35,218 bases of DNA. Source: Thermoproteota archaeon (lineage in GTDB: Archaea; Thermoproteota; Thermoprotei_A; EX4484-217-1; JAPDJV01). The stretch lies in NCBI GenBank assembly GCA_029258925.1, contig JAPDJV010000042.1:1-35218 (forward strand), written 5' to 3'. The first letter of the stretch is position 1, and each line of letters starts with the position of its first letter. The position numbers and the translations under genes are program-made. The notes below the pieces were generated by a model that saw only the letters and a list, made by a program, of their open reading frames with translations, was not told the DNA's origin and searched no databases. Below, in pieces: positions 3,550 to 29,985 of the stretch.

Positions 3550-4521
3550 TTGGAAACTATGATAGGTTATGATACTATTAGAAGCTCTACTGAGACAGGT
3601 ATTATTGCATTGAACGTGTTGAAAAGCATTCTACCCCAGTGTAAGTCAATTAAACAATTAGAGAATCTCCTAGTATCCTATGTTAGAAAGACTATTAGTT
3701 CTAGACCAACCTCAGCTATGATGATAAATGTTTTCAGGAAAACATTGTCCACATTTCTAGACCTCAAGGATGTCGGGGAAGTTGAGAGAGTGAAGAGTGC
3801 TTTAGGAAAAGTTATTGAAGAAGAATTGAAGAATGCGTATGAGAGCCTCAATAGAGCAGCCCTAATAGCATCTAAGAGAATAGTGGATGGAGACGTTGTC
3901 ATGACAAATGCGTACAGCATAACTATTCTAAAGACTTTGGAATATGCCAAGGGAGATGGAAAGGATTTCAGGATAATAGTGGCCGAGTCTAGGCCGGGAG
4001 ACGATGGACACGTAACTGCGAAGCTTCTTTCAAAAGCAGGATTCAAAGTAACTCTAATAATAGACAGTGCTATAAGGTATTTCATGAAGTATGCGACGAA
4101 GGTTTTCGTCGGAGCAGAGGCTATAGCATCCAATGGAGCTGCAGTGAGCAAGCTTGGAACATCAGTTATGGCATTATCTGCAAGCGAGGCAAGAGTCAGA
4201 GTATTCGTCGTAGCCGGAACATACAAACTTTACTTAGACACCGTTTTCGGAGAATTAGTCGATATACCTGAAGCAAAACCCAAAGCCATTCTCTCTAGGG
4301 AAACATGGATGAATATCGGCGAACAACTAGAGGTTTATGCTCCTCTCCTAGACGTTACTCCACCCGAATACATCGACGCAATAATAACAGAGAGAGGGCT
4401 AGTGGCTCCGCAGGCAATCCCCCTACTAATTAAGGAGGTGTATGGCGAGTGGCCTCCCCGCATACGGGGAGTGGAGGAACTATTGCAGGAAATAGGTGGT
4501 GGAAGTGGAGATTCCCGTTGA
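3550..4521 (+). CDS. eIF2B-alpha/R15P-isomerase-like paralogue, catalytic residues lost
   Basis: A member of the eIF2B alpha/beta/delta - ribose-1,5-bisphosphate isomerase - MTNA superfamily, 323 residues, with the Rossmann-like C-terminal half and the family signature DVTPPEYIDAIITERG. Aligned to its neighbour, the catalytic cysteine of THCNS is Ala121 (TNAYS) and the catalytic aspartate of VGADTV is Glu190 (VGAEAI). Isomerase activity is therefore unlikely. It may be a structural or regulatory partner of the downstream enzyme, or a true eIF2B-alpha-like protein. The start is TTG at 3550 with RBS AAGGGGA; ATG at 3559 is an alternative. It overlaps the next gene by 26 nt, implying tight coupling. 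A 47-bp block near its 3' end is identical to the neighbour. Confidence 0.85.
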   Translation: METMIGYDTIRSSTETGIIALNVLKSILPQCKSIKQLENLLVSYVRKTISSRPTSAMMINVFRKTLSTFLDLKDVGEVERVKSALGKVIEEELKNAYESLNRAALIASKRIVDGDVVMTNAYSITILKTLEYAKGDGKDFRIIVAESRPGDDGHVTAKLLSKAGFKVTLIIDSAIRYFMKYATKVFVGAEAIASNGAAVSKLGTSVMALSASEARVRVFVVAGTYKLYLDTVFGELVDIPEAKPKAILSRETWMNIGEQLEVYAPLLDVTPPEYIDAIITERGLVAPQAIPLLIKEVYGEWPPRIRGVEELLQEIGGGSGDSR

Positions 4522-5473
4522 AGTCATGAGAATAGCCGAAGAAATAAAGACTATGAAGTTAAGGGGTGCTGGGAAAATAGCTAGAGCTGCAGCTAAAGCA
4601 TTAATGATTTCAGCACTAGAATACAATGGGCCGAATGATGTAAACAGCTTCATAACATACATGAACAGGATTAAAAAGATACTACTGAATACTAGGCCGA
4701 CAGCAGTTTCGCTTCCAAACGCAGTACTTTACGTAACTAGAGATCTTGGAAGAATCCCAGGCAGCTTCGAGGATGCCAAGAGAACTGTTGTTGAGAGAGC
4801 AAGGGAGTTCATAAAGTATTCTCTAGAAGCGAAGAAGAAGATAGGGGTTATTGGAGCGAAGAGGATTTTGGATGGAGAAACTATTTTGACACATTGCAAT
4901 AGCAGTGTTGCAATAGAAATATTGAAAACAGCTTTCCTCGAAGGAAAGAAAATAAGAGTTTACGCGACTGAAACAAGGCCCTTATTTCAAGGCCACTTAA
5001 CTGCCAAACAACTCCTCGAAATAGGTATACCAGTAACCCTAATACCAGATGCAGCAGTCAGGCTTGTTATGAAAAATGTTGACAAGGTTATTGTCGGAGC
5101 AGACACTGTTGCAGCTAATGGTGCTGTAGTCAACAAGATTGGAACATCTCAGATAGCGCTCTCAGCCCACGAAGCTAGAGTGAGAGTATTTGTTGCAGCA
5201 GAAACCTTCAAGTTCAGCCCAGCGACAGTCATAGGGGAACTAGTGGTCATAGAGGAGAGAAGTCCTATTGAAGTAGTTGGAGAAGATTTCTTAAAGAACT
5301 ATCCCAGCATAGATGTCAGAAACCCCTCCTTCGACGTTACTCCACCCGAATACATCGACGCAATAATAACAGAGAGAGGTTTAATACCTCCCCAAGCATC
5401 CATCTTAATACTAAGGGAGGTATTCGGGTGGACTATTGAAGACTACATTGTCGAGAAGCTGTCCGAGGTATGA
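4496..5473 (+). CDS. Ribose-1,5-bisphosphate isomerase
   Basis: Converts ribose-1,5-bisphosphate to ribulose-1,5-bisphosphate, the RuBisCO substrate of the archaeal nucleoside/AMP degradation route. Both catalytic residues of the family are in place: Cys134 in LTHCNSS and Asp203 in VGADTVAANG, together with GAKRILDGE and the C-terminal DVTPPEYIDAIITERG. The length is 325 residues, as usual. The start is GTG at 4496, inside the upstream paralogue. The PfkB kinase gene overlaps its stop by 4 nt, so the three genes form one transcription unit. The alternative of an eIF2B subunit is made less likely by the intact active site. Confidence 0.85.
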   Translation: MVEVEIPVEVMRIAEEIKTMKLRGAGKIARAAAKALMISALEYNGPNDVNSFITYMNRIKKILLNTRPTAVSLPNAVLYVTRDLGRIPGSFEDAKRTVVERAREFIKYSLEAKKKIGVIGAKRILDGETILTHCNSSVAIEILKTAFLEGKKIRVYATETRPLFQGHLTAKQLLEIGIPVTLIPDAAVRLVMKNVDKVIVGADTVAANGAVVNKIGTSQIALSAHEARVRVFVAAETFKFSPATVIGELVVIEERSPIEVVGEDFLKNYPSIDVRNPSFDVTPPEYIDAIITERGLIPPQASILILREVFGWTIEDYIVEKLSEV

Positions 5474-6417
5474 TAATGGAGTACGATGTTGTTTCAATAG
5501 GAAACGCGAACATCGATATAGTGGTCTACGTTAAGAAAGTTCCGGAAGCTGATGAAGCTATAGAAGCATTCGACTACGCCATGTCTCCAGGTGGATCGGC
5601 GTCGAACTTCGCTGTATCAGCCCAACTAATGGGCGCTAAAGCATGTTTTGTTGGCTGCGTAGGCGAAGACTACTTCGGCGAAATGGTTTTATCCGGGTTT
5701 AGGTCGGCTGGTGTAAGCGTTGAATACGTCAAGTTCTCTAAGAAGCCCACTGGAATAGTCTTCATAATAGTAGGTGAGGAAGGAGTTAGGAGGATGATCG
5801 CCTACAGGGGGGCGAACCTTGATTTAGAGCCGGGTGATTTAAGAGGGGAGCTGTTTGATAAGACGAAGATAGTTCACGTTGCAAGCGTTAGAATAGGAAT
5901 AGCGTTAAAAGCGTCCGTGGAGGCAAGTAGGAGGGGATTGAAGTTCTCGTACGATCCCGGCTTCTCTGCAACAGAGAGAGGTATAGAAGCGTTAAAACCT
6001 ATTCTAAGTAGGACGCACGTGCTATACTTGAATACTAGGGAGCTAGCGAACCTAGTCGGCGTAGATGATCCTCTAGCTGCAGAAAAAATTCTACCATATG
6101 GTCCGAAAATAATTGTAGTGAAGCTCGGTTCTAGGGGATCGTTCATTGTTACAAAATACGAGAAAATACATGTACCCCCATATAGGCCAATGAAGGTTGT
6201 TGATACTACTGGGGCTGGAGATGTGTTCGCAGCGGCATTCACCATTGGACTTCTAGAAGGCTATAGTCTCCACGACTCCGCTCTCCTAGGCTCCATCGCT
6301 GCAGGAATAAAGATCTCTGGCAAAGGTGCTAGAAGTAATATTCCAGACAGAAGAAGAGTATTTGAGGTCTTTGAAAAAGTTAAGAGAAAACTTGAGTCAG
6401 AAATTAGGTTATTCTGA
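5470..6417 (+). CDS. PfkB-family sugar kinase, possibly ribose-1-phosphate kinase
   Basis: A ribokinase-like kinase of 315 residues. It carries the N-terminal substrate-binding PGGSASNFAV (about 40-49), the glycine-rich VGCVGEDYFG, and the C-terminal anion-hole/catalytic motif DTTGAGDVFAAAF with the catalytic Asp. The start codon overlaps the stop of the R15P isomerase gene (ATGATAATGG around 5470), so translation is coupled. In Thermococcus an ADP-dependent PfkB enzyme phosphorylates ribose-1-phosphate to ribose-1,5-bisphosphate just ahead of the isomerase. The context makes the same role likely here, but sequence alone cannot exclude a nucleoside or ribose kinase. Confidence 0.85.
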   Translation: MIMEYDVVSIGNANIDIVVYVKKVPEADEAIEAFDYAMSPGGSASNFAVSAQLMGAKACFVGCVGEDYFGEMVLSGFRSAGVSVEYVKFSKKPTGIVFIIVGEEGVRRMIAYRGANLDLEPGDLRGELFDKTKIVHVASVRIGIALKASVEASRRGLKFSYDPGFSATERGIEALKPILSRTHVLYLNTRELANLVGVDDPLAAEKILPYGPKIIVVKLGSRGSFIVTKYEKIHVPPYRPMKVVDTTGAGDVFAAAFTIGLLEGYSLHDSALLGSIAAGIKISGKGARSNIPDRRRVFEVFEKVKRKLESEIRLF

Positions 6418-14146: not shown

Positions 14147-14202
14147 GCAACAAAAACTTCCATGCAGAAGAATCGGAGAGCATATTCATCAGATATTGCC
14201 CG

Positions 14203-14255
14203 ATGATGATGAGTCCGACCCTTGATAGGTGAAGAAAACTTCTCTCCACTGAGGG
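14203..14255 (+). ncRNA. Possible C/D box guide sRNA
   Basis: The boxes occur in the right order with archaeal spacing: C box ATGATGA (14206-14212), a 9-nt guide, D' TTGA (14222-14225), a 3-nt D'-C' spacer, C' GTGAAGA (14229-14235), a 13-nt guide, and D CTGA (14249-14252). The flanking CCC (about 14199-14201) and GGG can form a short terminal stem. D' and C' each deviate by one base from consensus. Such RNAs direct 2'-O-methylation of rRNA or tRNA. It lies just downstream of the permease gene and may be processed from its transcript. It is a pattern match only, and target sites were not searched. Confidence 0.45.
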
Positions 14256-14322
14256 ATCTAGCATTTCATATTTCAATACAGGATTTTTAGGGTCAGGAAG
14301 CTGTTTCTTGTTTGTAGGTCTT

Positions 14323-15477
14323 TTAAGGTCTTTGTAGGTTCTGGTACGCCTCTTTAGGATTTAGTCCTAGGTATTCGAGTGCTATAATGTATGCTGAGGC
14401 TGTATGCTTATCTAGCCCAATATCTTTACCTATTAGCTCTGCTAATTTACTCGTATAAGAGGGGTTAACGTAATATATTTTGAGTCCATATTGTGATGCG
14501 TGCCACGATATTCTCTCAACGATTTCAATTGTAAACAATGATACTCTCCTATTCCATGTACTATTCCTTCTTTTACCTCTCCTTATCCAAACCCATCTCA
14601 AGTATCCTAGTGTTTTGACGTTCTCTAATACAATTAGTGAACATCCATGATTAACGGCATAGTCTAGCACCTTGTGAATAGCATTCATTATAATACTGAT
14701 TCTCCTTTCACGGCTTAATCCCTGCACTTTAAGTTCTGGGAAGCGAACAGTATAAGTATCCAGCAGAATCCCTTGCCTAGATACTACAGCTAGGTTTATC
14801 CTATCAAGATTAACGTCTATACCGCAGATATTATCTCCATGAACACATCCTTTAACTGGGAGATGGCTCACGTATAGGCTCCATGGAATGGTGACCTGTA
14901 GTTCGCAGTATGCTCTATAAGGTGAATAGTTTAGTAGAACTATTCTCGCTAGATATCCGAGCTTATTCTCCATACCCAGTTTAGCTACCTCGTTGAGAAT
15001 CATATTATACCTCATTGAAGTTCTATACTCTACCTTAATCCTTCTCCAAGAGGTATCATCGAAAACTAGCACCTCAACCGTGTTTCCTCCAACAAGCCTT
15101 ATGTTCCTATTCCCTTTCTCACTAGCATCATTCTTAGCTCCTATTGATTGTATCATCCACCAATCTCCAAGCTCCACATCACTTAAAGAGACATCTTCGC
15201 CCAGCTTCCGTAACGCTATAACTGAGTGTACTATTCCTTGTACTATCTTTGCTGAGCCACGAGCATACCTATTATTATCAATCACGCTCATTGACGCTCT
15301 TACTAAATCCGTGAACCTTGTTCTACCCTGTTTAGCAACATCTAACGCTCTCTGTGTACCCGCCTTAAACCTAGCCATTGTTAGTATTAGCCAATTGGCT
15401 TCATTTCCTTTGATGGTAAGTCTAGCTCTTACTATTGCTTCCTCGGGGATGTATGCATATTGTGAGCGTTGCTTCAT
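14323..15477 (-). CDS. TnpB-like RuvC nuclease lacking the zinc ribbon
   Basis: An IS200/IS605 OrfB (TnpB)-family protein. From ATG 15477 it has 384 residues. The RuvC triad is complete: Asp221 in CGIDVNLDRINLAVV, Glu285 in LIVLENVKTL and Asp356 in IGLDKHTASAYIIA. The usual CxxC...CxxC zinc ribbon between motifs II and III is absent: only about 12 residues separate NPSYTS from the last Asp, and the motif reads DKHTASAY instead of DRDVNAA. No TnpA gene is near, and no obvious hairpin scaffold follows the stop. The start overlaps the AbrB-like gene by 56 nt. It may be an immobile or domesticated nuclease, or an old IS605-type element of a crenarchaeal lineage. Confidence 0.8.
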   Translation of the reverse strand: MKQRSQYAYIPEEAIVRARLTIKGNEANWLILTMARFKAGTQRALDVAKQGRTRFTDLVRASMSVIDNNRYARGSAKIVQGIVHSVIALRKLGEDVSLSDVELGDWWMIQSIGAKNDASEKGNRNIRLVGGNTVEVLVFDDTSWRRIKVEYRTSMRYNMILNEVAKLGMENKLGYLARIVLLNYSPYRAYCELQVTIPWSLYVSHLPVKGCVHGDNICGIDVNLDRINLAVVSRQGILLDTYTVRFPELKVQGLSRERRISIIMNAIHKVLDYAVNHGCSLIVLENVKTLGYLRWVWIRRGKRRNSTWNRRVSLFTIEIVERISWHASQYGLKIYYVNPSYTSKLAELIGKDIGLDKHTASAYIIALEYLGLNPKEAYQNLQRP

Positions 15478-15595
15478 GCCCAAGGTACCTCTCAAGCTCT
15501 TTCTGATGCTTCTTCGGTACGTAGAATCCAATCCTCCCCTTACCAAGCTTAACAAGCCTAGTCCTAACAGTAAATACCTTCTTACACTCAGACAC
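15422..15595 (-). CDS. AbrB-like small protein overlapping tnpB
   Basis: A 57-residue protein with the look of a swapped-hairpin AbrB/SpoVT DNA-binding domain: VFTVRTRLVKLGKGRIGFYV, then PKKHQKELERYLGHEATLTI. The start is GTG at 15595, behind GGTGGCTG and about 35 nt downstream of a TATA element (TTTATAAAT, 15632-15640). A longer open frame to 15691 crosses the promoter and is not credible. The gene ends inside the TnpB-like gene. AbrB proteins act as antitoxins or local repressors, so it might regulate the nuclease. Role inferred from position. Confidence 0.6.
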   Translation of the reverse strand: MSECKKVFTVRTRLVKLGKGRIGFYVPKKHQKELERYLGHEATLTICIHPRGSNSKS

Positions 15596-15626
15596 GTTCC
15601 AGCCACCTATACTAAAAATTGACTGT

Positions 15627-15641
15627 AAAAATTTATAAATA
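15627..15641. promoter_or_regulatory. Bidirectional TATA element
   Basis: AAAATTTATAAATAT contains a near-symmetric TATA box. Leftward, the AbrB-like GTG start lies about 35 nt away, giving a short leader. Rightward, the GC-rich structured segment begins about 25 nt away (near 15661), where transcription would start. It is therefore a good candidate divergent promoter for the AbrB-TnpB pair and an RNA. Confidence 0.55.
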
Positions 15642-15660
15642 TGACTGCACAATATTATAA

Positions 15661-15812
15661 TGATAGTGTATCGGGGCGTCTCCGAGACCACCCGCTCCGA
15701 GCAGTATGCCTGAAAAGTGGATGTTAGCGTGAAGGAGCGGGTGGGAGGGGGCGTACCCCGAAGCCGTGATGAATCGACCTACGGAGACCAAAAAAGACCG
15801 TAGGCGGGGAAC
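15661..15812 (+). ncRNA. Structured GC-rich RNA candidate next to the TnpB element
   Basis: A GC-rich island in AT-rich surroundings that has no credible coding frame. Helices visible on the plus strand: CCCGCTCC (15691-15698) with GGAGCGGG (15734-15741), GGGG-CGTA-CCCC (15748-15759), and CCTACGG (15778-15784) with CCGTAGG (15798-15804). Between the last two lies GAAGCCGTGATGAAT (15760-15774). The GTGATGA and CCTACGG words also occur in the repeats at 1-196 and 27977-28170. A TATA element sits 25 nt upstream. It could be the guide-RNA scaffold of the adjacent TnpB or the left end of that element. Its far end coincides with the truncation of the glycosyltransferase gene. Confidence 0.5.
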
Positions 15813-16463
15813 GGTTCTTAGGGGACCGTCTCCAACTATCCATAGTTCGGCATCTAAGTCTTTGATCGCCCCAGCGACGTCTACGAGTATATCGACTCCC
15901 TCAGTTCTAGAAAGCTTACCTACATACAACAACACTTTTCTCTGACTTGGAATTCCAAGCTCTTTTCTAACATCTCTTGTAGCATATTCGCTAAACTTTT
16001 TCTCCGGATAGTTGGGAATGACTTCTACAGGTTTCCCAAGTCCTTCAACTTCCATTGCTAGGGATGTGGATGCGCAAACTATGTAGGATGCCTTACTCAT
16101 TAACACTGTTTCGAAAATTTTTGCGATTAGAGGCAGAAAGCTCCCTCCGATCTCCCTTTTAACACTATAATACCAGGGACTACGCCTATCGTAAACATAT
16201 TTCCTCCTAAATATGGCTAGGGGGATATATATTATGTCTGGAACGTTTTCAACCCAGTAAAGATCTGCTTTAATAATCGCTATCTCGACAAGAGCTAACG
16301 CATAGTTTAGTAAAGCTCTTATGAGTCTAGGTCCCTTGTTAAAGCGTTTTCTAATACCCCACAACTTCACCTTATAACCGGATCTGACGAGGGTTTTAGC
16401 TATCTTTATAGATCTTGGATGTCTCCATATTTCGAGAGATAACACAAATATTCTCCTAGACAT
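15812..16463 (-). pseudogene. Glycosyltransferase (GT4-like), 3'-truncated
   Basis: The N-terminal two thirds of a GT-B glycosyltransferase: the start at ATG 16463 (MSRRIFVLSLEIWRHPRS), a donor-domain segment VLLYVGKLSRTEGVDIL, and AELWIVGDGPLR. Homology-like sequence stops right after GDGPLR, near 15812. The downstream frame continues to 15633 through the structured element but encodes nothing like the expected donor-site EGFGLPLLEA region, so about 120-150 residues are lost. The gene follows the 2-epimerase gene by 16 nt, in the glycan operon. A functional product is unlikely. Confidence 0.8.
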
Positions 16464-16479
16464 GTTCAAAGCATCCCCA

Positions 16480-27207: not shown

Positions 27208-27960
27208 TTATTTACGCTTAAACAACAATAATAGAATCACTGCAATAACTACTATGACAGCTACTGCACCACCCACGATTAAGAAGTCTAGGCTCACAGC
27301 CTGCGCTGTAACCTCGGCAGTAGTTGTTTGAGTGGGCGTACTTGGGGTTGCCGGGGCAGAAACATTAAACTGTAGCTTTTCGTATTCTTTTATATTATTT
27401 TGCTCTGGGCGATATGCTTATAGTTTGTTGCGTCAACGATTTTCGTGGACGTGCGGGTGATGGGAGCAATGCTCCAAGCCCCGTGCCGTTGGGCTCGACA
27501 GCCACCCATGACCCCATAAGGATATCTAAATCCCCATGGGCGAGGCAGGAACCGATGAAGCCATGTCACAATGAAACAAAAACACATAGAGTGATACGGT
27601 TCGAGGAAACGGAAGTTGGAGTAGTAGGGCTTGTAGGTGTAGTAGGAGTTGTGGGGGTTGTGGGGGTTGTGGGTGTTGCTCCAACTATTTCTATGAGAAA
27701 CGTCCTATTACCCTCCTTGAAAACCTCGTCGCCCGAGTATACTACTGTGAAATAGTGAGTTCCTGGCTCCCCGAATGGATCTACACTAATACTTGCCTCA
27801 CCGTTGACGAGTGTGGCTTCACCTATGAACTCCCCGTCTAAGTAGAATGTTACGTGCCCTCTCCCCTATGGAAGGGCATATGTTCTATTATAACTGTTAT
27901 GTTTATTGGAACACCTACATTGAACCCCCTCCTATGAGAGAAGCCGTTCATCTAAACCGT
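27208..27960 (-). pseudogene. Broken Ig-like surface protein with C-terminal anchor
   Basis: Two parts are recognisable on the minus strand. The upstream part (27960 to ~27596) encodes a beta-sandwich/Ig-like domain (VTFYLDGEFIGEATLVNGEA, GTHYFTVVYSGDEVFKEGN), followed by a TPT-rich stalk. The downstream part (~27400 to the stop 27208-27210) encodes a Thr/Pro stalk and a C-terminal helix (FLIVGGAVAVIVVIAVILLLF). A ~195-bp GC-rich insert separates them, and a one-base frameshift lies near 27872 before VTFYLDG. The 5' end abuts the repeat at 27977. The gene is therefore dead, though its design mirrors the intact surface protein downstream. Confidence 0.75.
27400..27595 (+). mobile_element. Short TnpB-type 3'-end remnant splitting the surface-protein gene
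   Basis: A GC-rich island of about 195 bp inside the pseudogene. On the plus strand it holds an open frame resembling the Pro-rich tail of a TnpB protein (NAPSPVPLGSTATHDP). CCCATG (27505-27510) pairs with CATGGG (27535-27540), and further on stands GATGAAG (27554-27560), then ATGTCAC. The hairpin plus GATGAA layout is shared with 1-196, 15661-15812, 27977-28170 and 29600-29750. The words CCATGACCCCAT also recur at 29.7 kb. Assignment to IS200/IS605 is inference; boundaries are approximate. Confidence 0.5.
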
Positions 27961-27976
27961 ATCTTCATCTATCAAT

Positions 27977-28170
27977 TTATATCGTATCTGACACGGTTAG
28001 GTTCATCACGGTCTCCGCTGAGCCGCCTACGGGAGCACAAGCTCCCCTCGGGAACCCAGCGGTCACCATTAGGTTCATATGTCTTAGGAGTTTATAGGTC
28101 TTACGAACTTCTCCAAAGGCATGAAAGACATACTATGATACAGAAAGATATAATCTAACATTTCTACCCC
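27977..28170 (-). repeat. Structured ~195-bp repeat, right copy
   Basis: Second copy of the repeat at 1-196. The outer stem CCGCTG/CAGCGG (28015-28020, 28057-28062) is intact. The inner hairpin is GGGAGC-ACAA-GCTCCC (28031-28046); in the left copy the last pair is T-G instead of C-G and the loop is longer, so pairing is kept while sequence changes. GTGATGAAC lies at 28001-28009 on the minus strand. The right end (TTTCTACCCC) abuts a 5'-truncated retropepsin gene; the left end abuts the dead surface-protein gene. Confidence 0.8.
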
Positions 28171-29589: not shown

Positions 29590-29985
29590 TAAGATTCCAA
29601 CCGTTTCACGCCCTAGGTCATCGTAGGTCTTGCTGGGACAGGTTATACATAGCTCCTATTATTCATCGCGGCTACAAGCCGCTCTACATGGGGTCATGGA
29701 CACCCTCAGGGCGAACAGCACACACCTCACATCCAAGACGCATCCCCTACAAAAGAGGGCTGCACAGACCTATAAAGACCTTTACTAAGAAAATGCCTCC
29801 ATCCCTGGGCTTCTCACCATAGGGTTTATCATATTTCCCAGCACTATTCCCACGATATGGTGCTCCGAGAACAATGTTTTCACGACGATTCTCGGAGAGG
29901 TTGGCAGCACCGTCAACTAGGATGGCCATATATTTCATTTACGTCAGCAACTAGGTAACCATTGTAGCCAAGTTCTCCAAATTCT
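29590..29985 (-). other. Remnant of a mobile element, TnpB-type tail suspected
   Basis: No intact gene. On the minus strand the piece GELGYNGYLVADVNEIYG (near 29970-29925) frameshifts into NLSENRRENIVLGAPYRGN, as if from a decayed coding region. Further along lie CCATGACCCCAT (also present at 27.5 kb), a perfect hairpin GCGGCT-TGT-AGCCGC (29668-29682) and immediately GATGAAT (29661-29667). This repeats the hairpin-GATGAA layout seen elsewhere in the window. The original protein is not identified. Confidence 0.4.

Follow-up and report, generated by a model that had tools for sequence, protein, structure and literature searches.

A probable IS607-like transposable element without TnpA, carrying an inverted zinc-ribbon-less tnpB and a separately promoted guide RNA candidate in a Thermoproteota archaeon

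The window analyzed here, a 35,218-nucleotide stretch of a Thermoproteota archaeon genome (assembly GCA_029258925.1, contig JAPDJV010000042.1, positions 1 to 35,218), carries a mobile element at 14290..15814 that extends from a left GG core to a right ACGG core. The left end is followed by tnpB and an AbrB-like gene (abrB) on one strand and by a divergently promoted, omega-RNA-like guide candidate that runs into the right end. We regard it as probable, at roughly 0.78, that this is a transposable element without a TnpA of its own, with IS607-like ends and its own RNA-guided nuclease module in which tnpB is inverted and the guide RNA is separately promoted. The system probably looks and works like an IS607 TnpB/omega-RNA transposon, and is described as a distinct variant because the zinc ribbon, the 3′ overlapping RNA and an own TnpA are missing. 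The element limits, the head-to-head RNA and its covariation, the RuvC domain under purifying selection, the GG junctions, the guide-only derivatives and their empty sites are read directly from the sequence, from which RNA-guided cutting and mobilization in trans are predicted.

Element limits and insertion site

Homology with relatives ends sharply at many loci, at about 14287-14289 on the left and about 15815-15816 on the right, making the element wider than the 14323-15812 segment outlined in an earlier sequence-only reading of this DNA. The left end (14290..14345, plus strand) has the form (A)GGGT-N8-CTGTTTC...GTAGGTCTTTTAAGGTCTTTGTAGG, lies partly within the 3′ end of tnpB and is conserved in 13 aligned left ends; left ends come after a G-rich target and show no target duplication. 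On the right, a glycosyltransferase gene outside the element (15815..16469, minus strand) is cut short at GDGPLR by the end of the element. Taken alone, the two ends in the window give a terminal inverted repeat score of 30 against a shuffle maximum of 31 and mean of 17, which is not clearly above shuffles. IS607 elements insert at GG without duplication (PMC6188088), and comparison of empty with occupied sites in sister genomes likewise gives GG cores at both ends and no target duplication; judged by these junctions, the zinc-ribbon-less family carries an IS607 signature.

A zinc-ribbon-less nuclease barely recognizable by sequence

The TnpB-like open reading frame (ORF) occupies 14323-15606 on the minus strand, with M44 (15477) as its likeliest start, giving a TnpB/Cas12f-like nuclease of 384 aa (14323..15477) whose residues are counted here from M44. 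The three RuvC acids reported for it, Asp221, Glu285 and Asp356, are near-invariant, being kept in 57/57, 57/57 and 56/57 aligned family members, respectively. Canonical TnpBs are marked by a TNB zinc ribbon (CxxC...CxxC) and by an omega-RNA that overlaps the tnpB 3′ end on the same strand (PMC10097598). The absence of the ribbon, also claimed previously, extends to the whole family: the motif occurs in no member and a short loop takes its place. The ratio of nonsynonymous to synonymous substitution rates (dN/dS) for tnpB is 0.13 against its closest homologue (L053), within a range of 0.06-0.13 that is taken as purifying selection.

No Pfam family matches any of the 57 family members at E<=0.001, the best TnpB-related NCBIfam match (guided_TnpB, 5.9e-5) lies far under its cut-off, and a sequence search of the PDB with the nuclease matched nothing; the protein is a nuclease barely recognizable by sequence. 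Its AlphaFold model (predicted local distance difference test score, pLDDT, 87; predicted template modelling score, pTM, 0.82) has the overall TnpB fold, with 25 structural matches at E<=0.001, at template modelling (TM) scores of about 0.4-0.5 and low identity. Cas12f, the type V-F effector and likewise a compact RuvC nuclease, is the closest solved fold (5.8e-11), followed by ISDra2 TnpB (2.4e-6) and the IS607 TnpB of ISFba1 (7.5e-5). The family differs from Cas12f in its missing zinc ribbon, its single-guide transposon-end RNA and its identity of only 10-14%.

A profile search across the class found relatives in 74 of 229 genomes, and beyond it in Thermococcus, Archaeoglobaceae, Bathyarchaeota and others; no viral relatives were found in IMG/VR. 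In a tree with long branches, the 75 family members included cluster together with full support, and five canonical TnpBs from the same genome fall outside this cluster.

A head-to-head guide RNA candidate

The scaffold of the guide RNA candidate (15674..15814, plus strand) reaches the element's right end, where it closes with ACGG. The divergent structured RNA proposed from the sequence is borne out by its predicted fold of -85.7 kcal/mol (z = -5.7, with 0/200 shuffles as good); the opposite strand gives z = -2.3. A second copy with 79% identity lies elsewhere in the same genome, and a covariance model matches the window RNA at 15713-15815 (3.7e-11, the window copy being among the 37 training sequences). 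A ACCGTGATGAACC core and a terminal ACGG(T/C) are common to the 37 aligned copies. The P3 stem has undergone compensatory changes at all seven of its pairs, and changes in loop length are also seen; in 34/38 copies every position of the 8-bp P1 stem is paired (mean 7.9 vs 6.8 in shuffles). Rfam has no match in the window.

At 57 of the 62 loci open to assessment, the covariance model places a divergent RNA upstream of tnpB, as a rule with about 50 nt between it and the start codon; this count takes in a few matches with E between 0.01 and 1, and a further 18 loci were not assessable. Many training sequences of the model come from these same loci, however the association between RNA and nuclease is not circular because most loci were fetched via the protein and not the RNA. 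RNA and nuclease occur together in 57 genomes of the class (Fisher p about 1e-21); for RNA with IS607-type TnpA the figure is 51 (p about 3e-7), with genomes counted irrespective of phylogeny in both cases. Together with the covarying stem, the recurrent arrangement supports the proposal of a TnpB-type nuclease with a candidate guide RNA upstream on the other strand. The omega-RNA of canonical TnpBs sits at the tnpB 3′ end, whereas here, as the sequence-only reading had stated, no guide scaffold was found after the tnpB stop and only the left end of the element is present there.

The presumed guide (15815..15836, plus strand) is the host flank that follows immediately on the conserved ACGG; it runs antisense to the glycosyltransferase gene. 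Because the RNA and the element end together in this ACGG, the host flank would become the guide; each RNA carries a single guide, and the place of the guide is in every case occupied by the flank of the element itself. It could instead be argued that the RNA sequence is no guide but simply the end of the transposon, folded and serving the recombinase as a DNA site, and that the TnpB-like protein works without RNA. Because the right end resembles that of IS607, the RNA sequence probably does double as a DNA end, but as a full account we consider this unlikely: compensatory and loop-length changes fit a guide scaffold, a TATA-like site lies upstream, terminal ACCGT...ACGGT pairing falls immediately before the host flank, and conservation spans 110-135 nt, well past the end repeats.

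RNA copies in other arrangements were also observed. At locus L117, three further guide-RNA-like matches (3980-4092, plus; 4502-4572, minus; 6280-6394, plus) surround an AbrB-clade nuclease, none of them head-to-head. At L019, upstream of 1460 in genome G001, an RNA copy lies directly downstream of the 3′ end of an apparent canonical zinc-ribbon TnpB, as if in an ancestral layout.

Guide-only copies and empty sites

The genome carrying the window has 16 RNA-model matches and 4 family nucleases, and most of these matches mark copies of about 225 bp that hold the guide RNA alone. Fourteen right ends could be read there, 13 with flank sequence, all differing downstream. Two such copies lie within the window itself: one of about 225 bp and of the C13/C7 type (27944..28168, minus strand; RNA model match 27943-28070, 1.3e-19) with GGGG at its left junction and a matched left end, and one cut by the contig end (1..196, minus strand; RNA model match 1-96, left end 143-196). 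Matches at or near contig ends were also seen on other contigs of this genome (C32 1-130, C33 16-146 and C1 129429-129556, besides position 1 of the window), suggesting that the RNA repeats break its assembly.

Comparison of sister genomes reveals insertion of these copies. G178 has the empty form of a site that holds a guide-only copy in G052, with 93% identity across the joint. Genome G030 holds eight near-identical copies of 285-307 bp, with GGGG on the left, ACGG on the right and eight different guides and flanks, and its sister G067 has matching empty sites. The clearest of these, 95% identical over 240 columns, reads GAGGGGG|CTCATAATCCTCTCGATGGCTAT, where the sequence after GAGGGGG equals the copy's flank, its presumed guide, for 23 nt; the remaining matches are 66-88% identical, and in several of them divergence makes the joint unreadable. 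Guide-only copies have the ends of the full element, no nuclease ORF and several sites, and are in this respect like miniature inverted-repeat transposable elements (MITEs). Standalone omega-RNAs and MITEs of IS605/IscB-type elements are short and keep the ends and guide RNA once the nuclease gene is gone, as the copies here do; in contrast to those, the present copies derive from an inverted head-to-head layout and outnumber the nuclease in their own genome (16 vs 4). In a further 20 genomes of the class, G166 and 19 others, RNA copies are present (nine in G166) and the zinc-ribbon-less nuclease was not detected; these are candidates for orphan guide elements or for undetected nucleases.

These findings bear on the earlier suggestion of domestication, in which an RNA-guided nuclease or regulator would have become fixed to serve the host and would be repressed by the AbrB-like protein. 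In its favor, the unit has no transposase, its genes are under purifying selection and more than one clade has regulator ORFs. The precise ends, the truncated gene, the scattered copies with unique flanks, the guide-only copies and the empty sites in sister genomes all speak against it, however. TldR proteins are TnpB-like, nuclease-dead repressors with an inactivated RuvC, and resemble the present system in combining a TnpB-like protein with a guide RNA and extra genes; here the RuvC triad is intact in 56/57 members and the element is mobile. Domestication is accordingly very unlikely, and strongly disfavored for the clade of the window.

AbrB-like and RHH-like ORFs at the divergent promoter

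A 57-aa AbrB-like ORF (15422..15595, minus strand), with its stop at 15422 and a likely GTG start at 15595, overlaps tnpB from M44 by exactly the 56 nt originally reported and is a likely autoregulator. Its dN/dS is about 0.10 (vs L053), a figure of less independent value because part of the ORF overlaps tnpB. Besides the window, L053 and one separate clade have such an ORF ahead of tnpB; the sole confident AbrB is at L126, where an ORF in the counterpart position matches PF04014 / MazE_antitoxin at 2e-12. At L005, L104 and L120 the position is taken by a ribbon-helix-helix (RHH)-like ORF, that of L005 being a reasonable yet sub-threshold RHH (RHH_6, 9e-5). The large remaining clade has neither, and most loci are without any AbrB ORF. 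The sequence-only reading had named homologues without the AbrB ORF or the upstream RNA as evidence against itself: AbrB-less homologues were found and count against its AbrB part, whereas the upstream RNA holds.

The divergent promoter region (15620..15665), read from the sequence, has a TATA-like site for abrB-tnpB on the minus strand and one for the RNA on the plus strand, a layout repeated in relatives. A near-symmetric TATA had been described here; the region does lie between the gene pair and the RNA, but neither its symmetry nor a palindromic operator in the window stands above shuffles. Several AbrB-clade promoters (L107, L113, L114 and L117) do contain a TACAGAAAA-TATA-TTTCTGTA palindrome well above shuffles. 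By the promoter of the RHH-linked locus L104 there is a perfect TTATATCTAGATATCTAGATATAA palindrome, a candidate operator. A repressor encoded in the same unit is plausible, given the ORFs and palindromes of some clades, though the large remaining clade lacks the ORF, and we infer that the AbrB-like, elsewhere RHH-like, protein autoregulates the shared divergent promoter.

AbrB-type proteins are common antitoxins, and the MazE_antitoxin match at L126 would suit a defense or addiction module of AbrB, TnpB and RNA that happens to sit in a transposon. This seems extremely unlikely, since the sequence in the place of the guide is invariably the flank of the element and the AbrB ORF is missing at most loci.

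Relationship to IS607 elements

IS607 TnpBs use a right-end RNA with the flank as the guide (PMC11061315, PMC10711439), and their target-adjacent motifs (TAMs) are G-rich, such as AGGAG and GAGGG (PMC11061315) or GGG (PMC10711439). The present family resembles IS607 transposons with TnpB (such as ISFba1 and ISXfa1) in its right-end guide scaffold with the flank as guide, its GG-type junctions without duplication, its G-rich motif 5′ of the target, its RuvC D-E-D triad and a right-end sequence in common with resident IS607: the right end of an IS607 element in the same genome aligns with that of the window at a score of 42 (shuffle maximum 32). It differs from them in that tnpB is inverted relative to the RNA, the zinc ribbon is missing, the RNA has its own promoter-like region and does not overlap the tnpB 3′ end, some clades have a small regulator ORF, and the unit is without tnpA. 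The lack of TnpA noted earlier for the window element extends to the family, in no element of which was this serine recombinase found. The genome carrying the window has seven serine recombinase matches; a Y1 transposase was rejected as the mobilizer, none being present in this genome. A recombinase at L054 is part of a separate IS607 copy nearby, and a gene-less right-end relic of an IS607 element like that of contig C9 (L134) lies in the window at 29598-29731 (minus strand).

Several observations weigh against the interpretation as an IS607-like element with an RNA-guided nuclease. The left-end likeness to the IS607 of the same genome is weak, with 6/2000 shuffles as good, and the left flank (14147-14289) does not carry on the truncated glycosyltransferase, possibly owing to recombination between two element copies or to a deletion. 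Five AbrB-clade loci among the 62 assessable have no RNA-model match, and the AbrB-like ORF of the window matches no Pfam family, PF04014 (AbrB/SpoVT) included. TnpB-like activity might be altered without the zinc ribbon of TnpB and Cas12f, and the nuclease-RNA system is known here from sequence and a predicted fold, with cleavage, RNA binding and transcription presumed. Finally, no serine recombinase is detectable in G030, a one-contig genome with eight near-identical guide-only copies; the mobilizer there may have been lost, and this goes against a simple version of mobilization in trans by IS607 TnpA, which may not be universal.

Proposed mechanism and significance

For the preferred interpretation of an IS607-like element with its own nuclease module, the following cycle can be proposed. 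The serine recombinase (TnpA) of resident IS607 elements would move the element in trans. RNA read beyond ACGG into the flank would give each copy a guide to its own insertion site, and the guide-loaded nuclease would cut the empty site left by excision, beside the G-rich motif, with repair restoring the element in a nuclease-dependent form of retention. Guide-only copies would use the nuclease in trans, and the AbrB-like (elsewhere RHH-like) protein would repress the shared divergent promoter.

A literature search returned nothing relevant on divergent TnpB layouts or on AbrB with TnpB, the main papers on the diversity of TnpB, on selfish retention and on TldR falling outside the comparison. 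It is conceivable, as a tentative proposal somewhat short of even odds, that the family is a distinct archaeal RNA-guided class, in which guides are supplied apart from the nuclease gene and a single regulated zinc-ribbon-less nuclease serves dispersed mobile guide genes in trans, with a new guide at each insertion and an AbrB/RHH-controlled promoter.

Known TnpB systems derive their guide from the nuclease mRNA, at its 3′ end. In the present element the nuclease gene faces away from a guide RNA that appears to be separately promoted, an unusual layout among relatives of CRISPR enzymes; guide and nuclease appear to be uncoupled, plausibly paralleling CRISPR-Cas12, in which effector and guide are encoded by genes of their own. 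The nucleases themselves are small (about 340-385 aa), mostly derived from thermophiles, zinc-ribbon-less and without a Pfam match. The guide-only elements would allow a direct test of whether parasites of a transposon can persist on its nuclease through RNA-guided cutting at empty sites.
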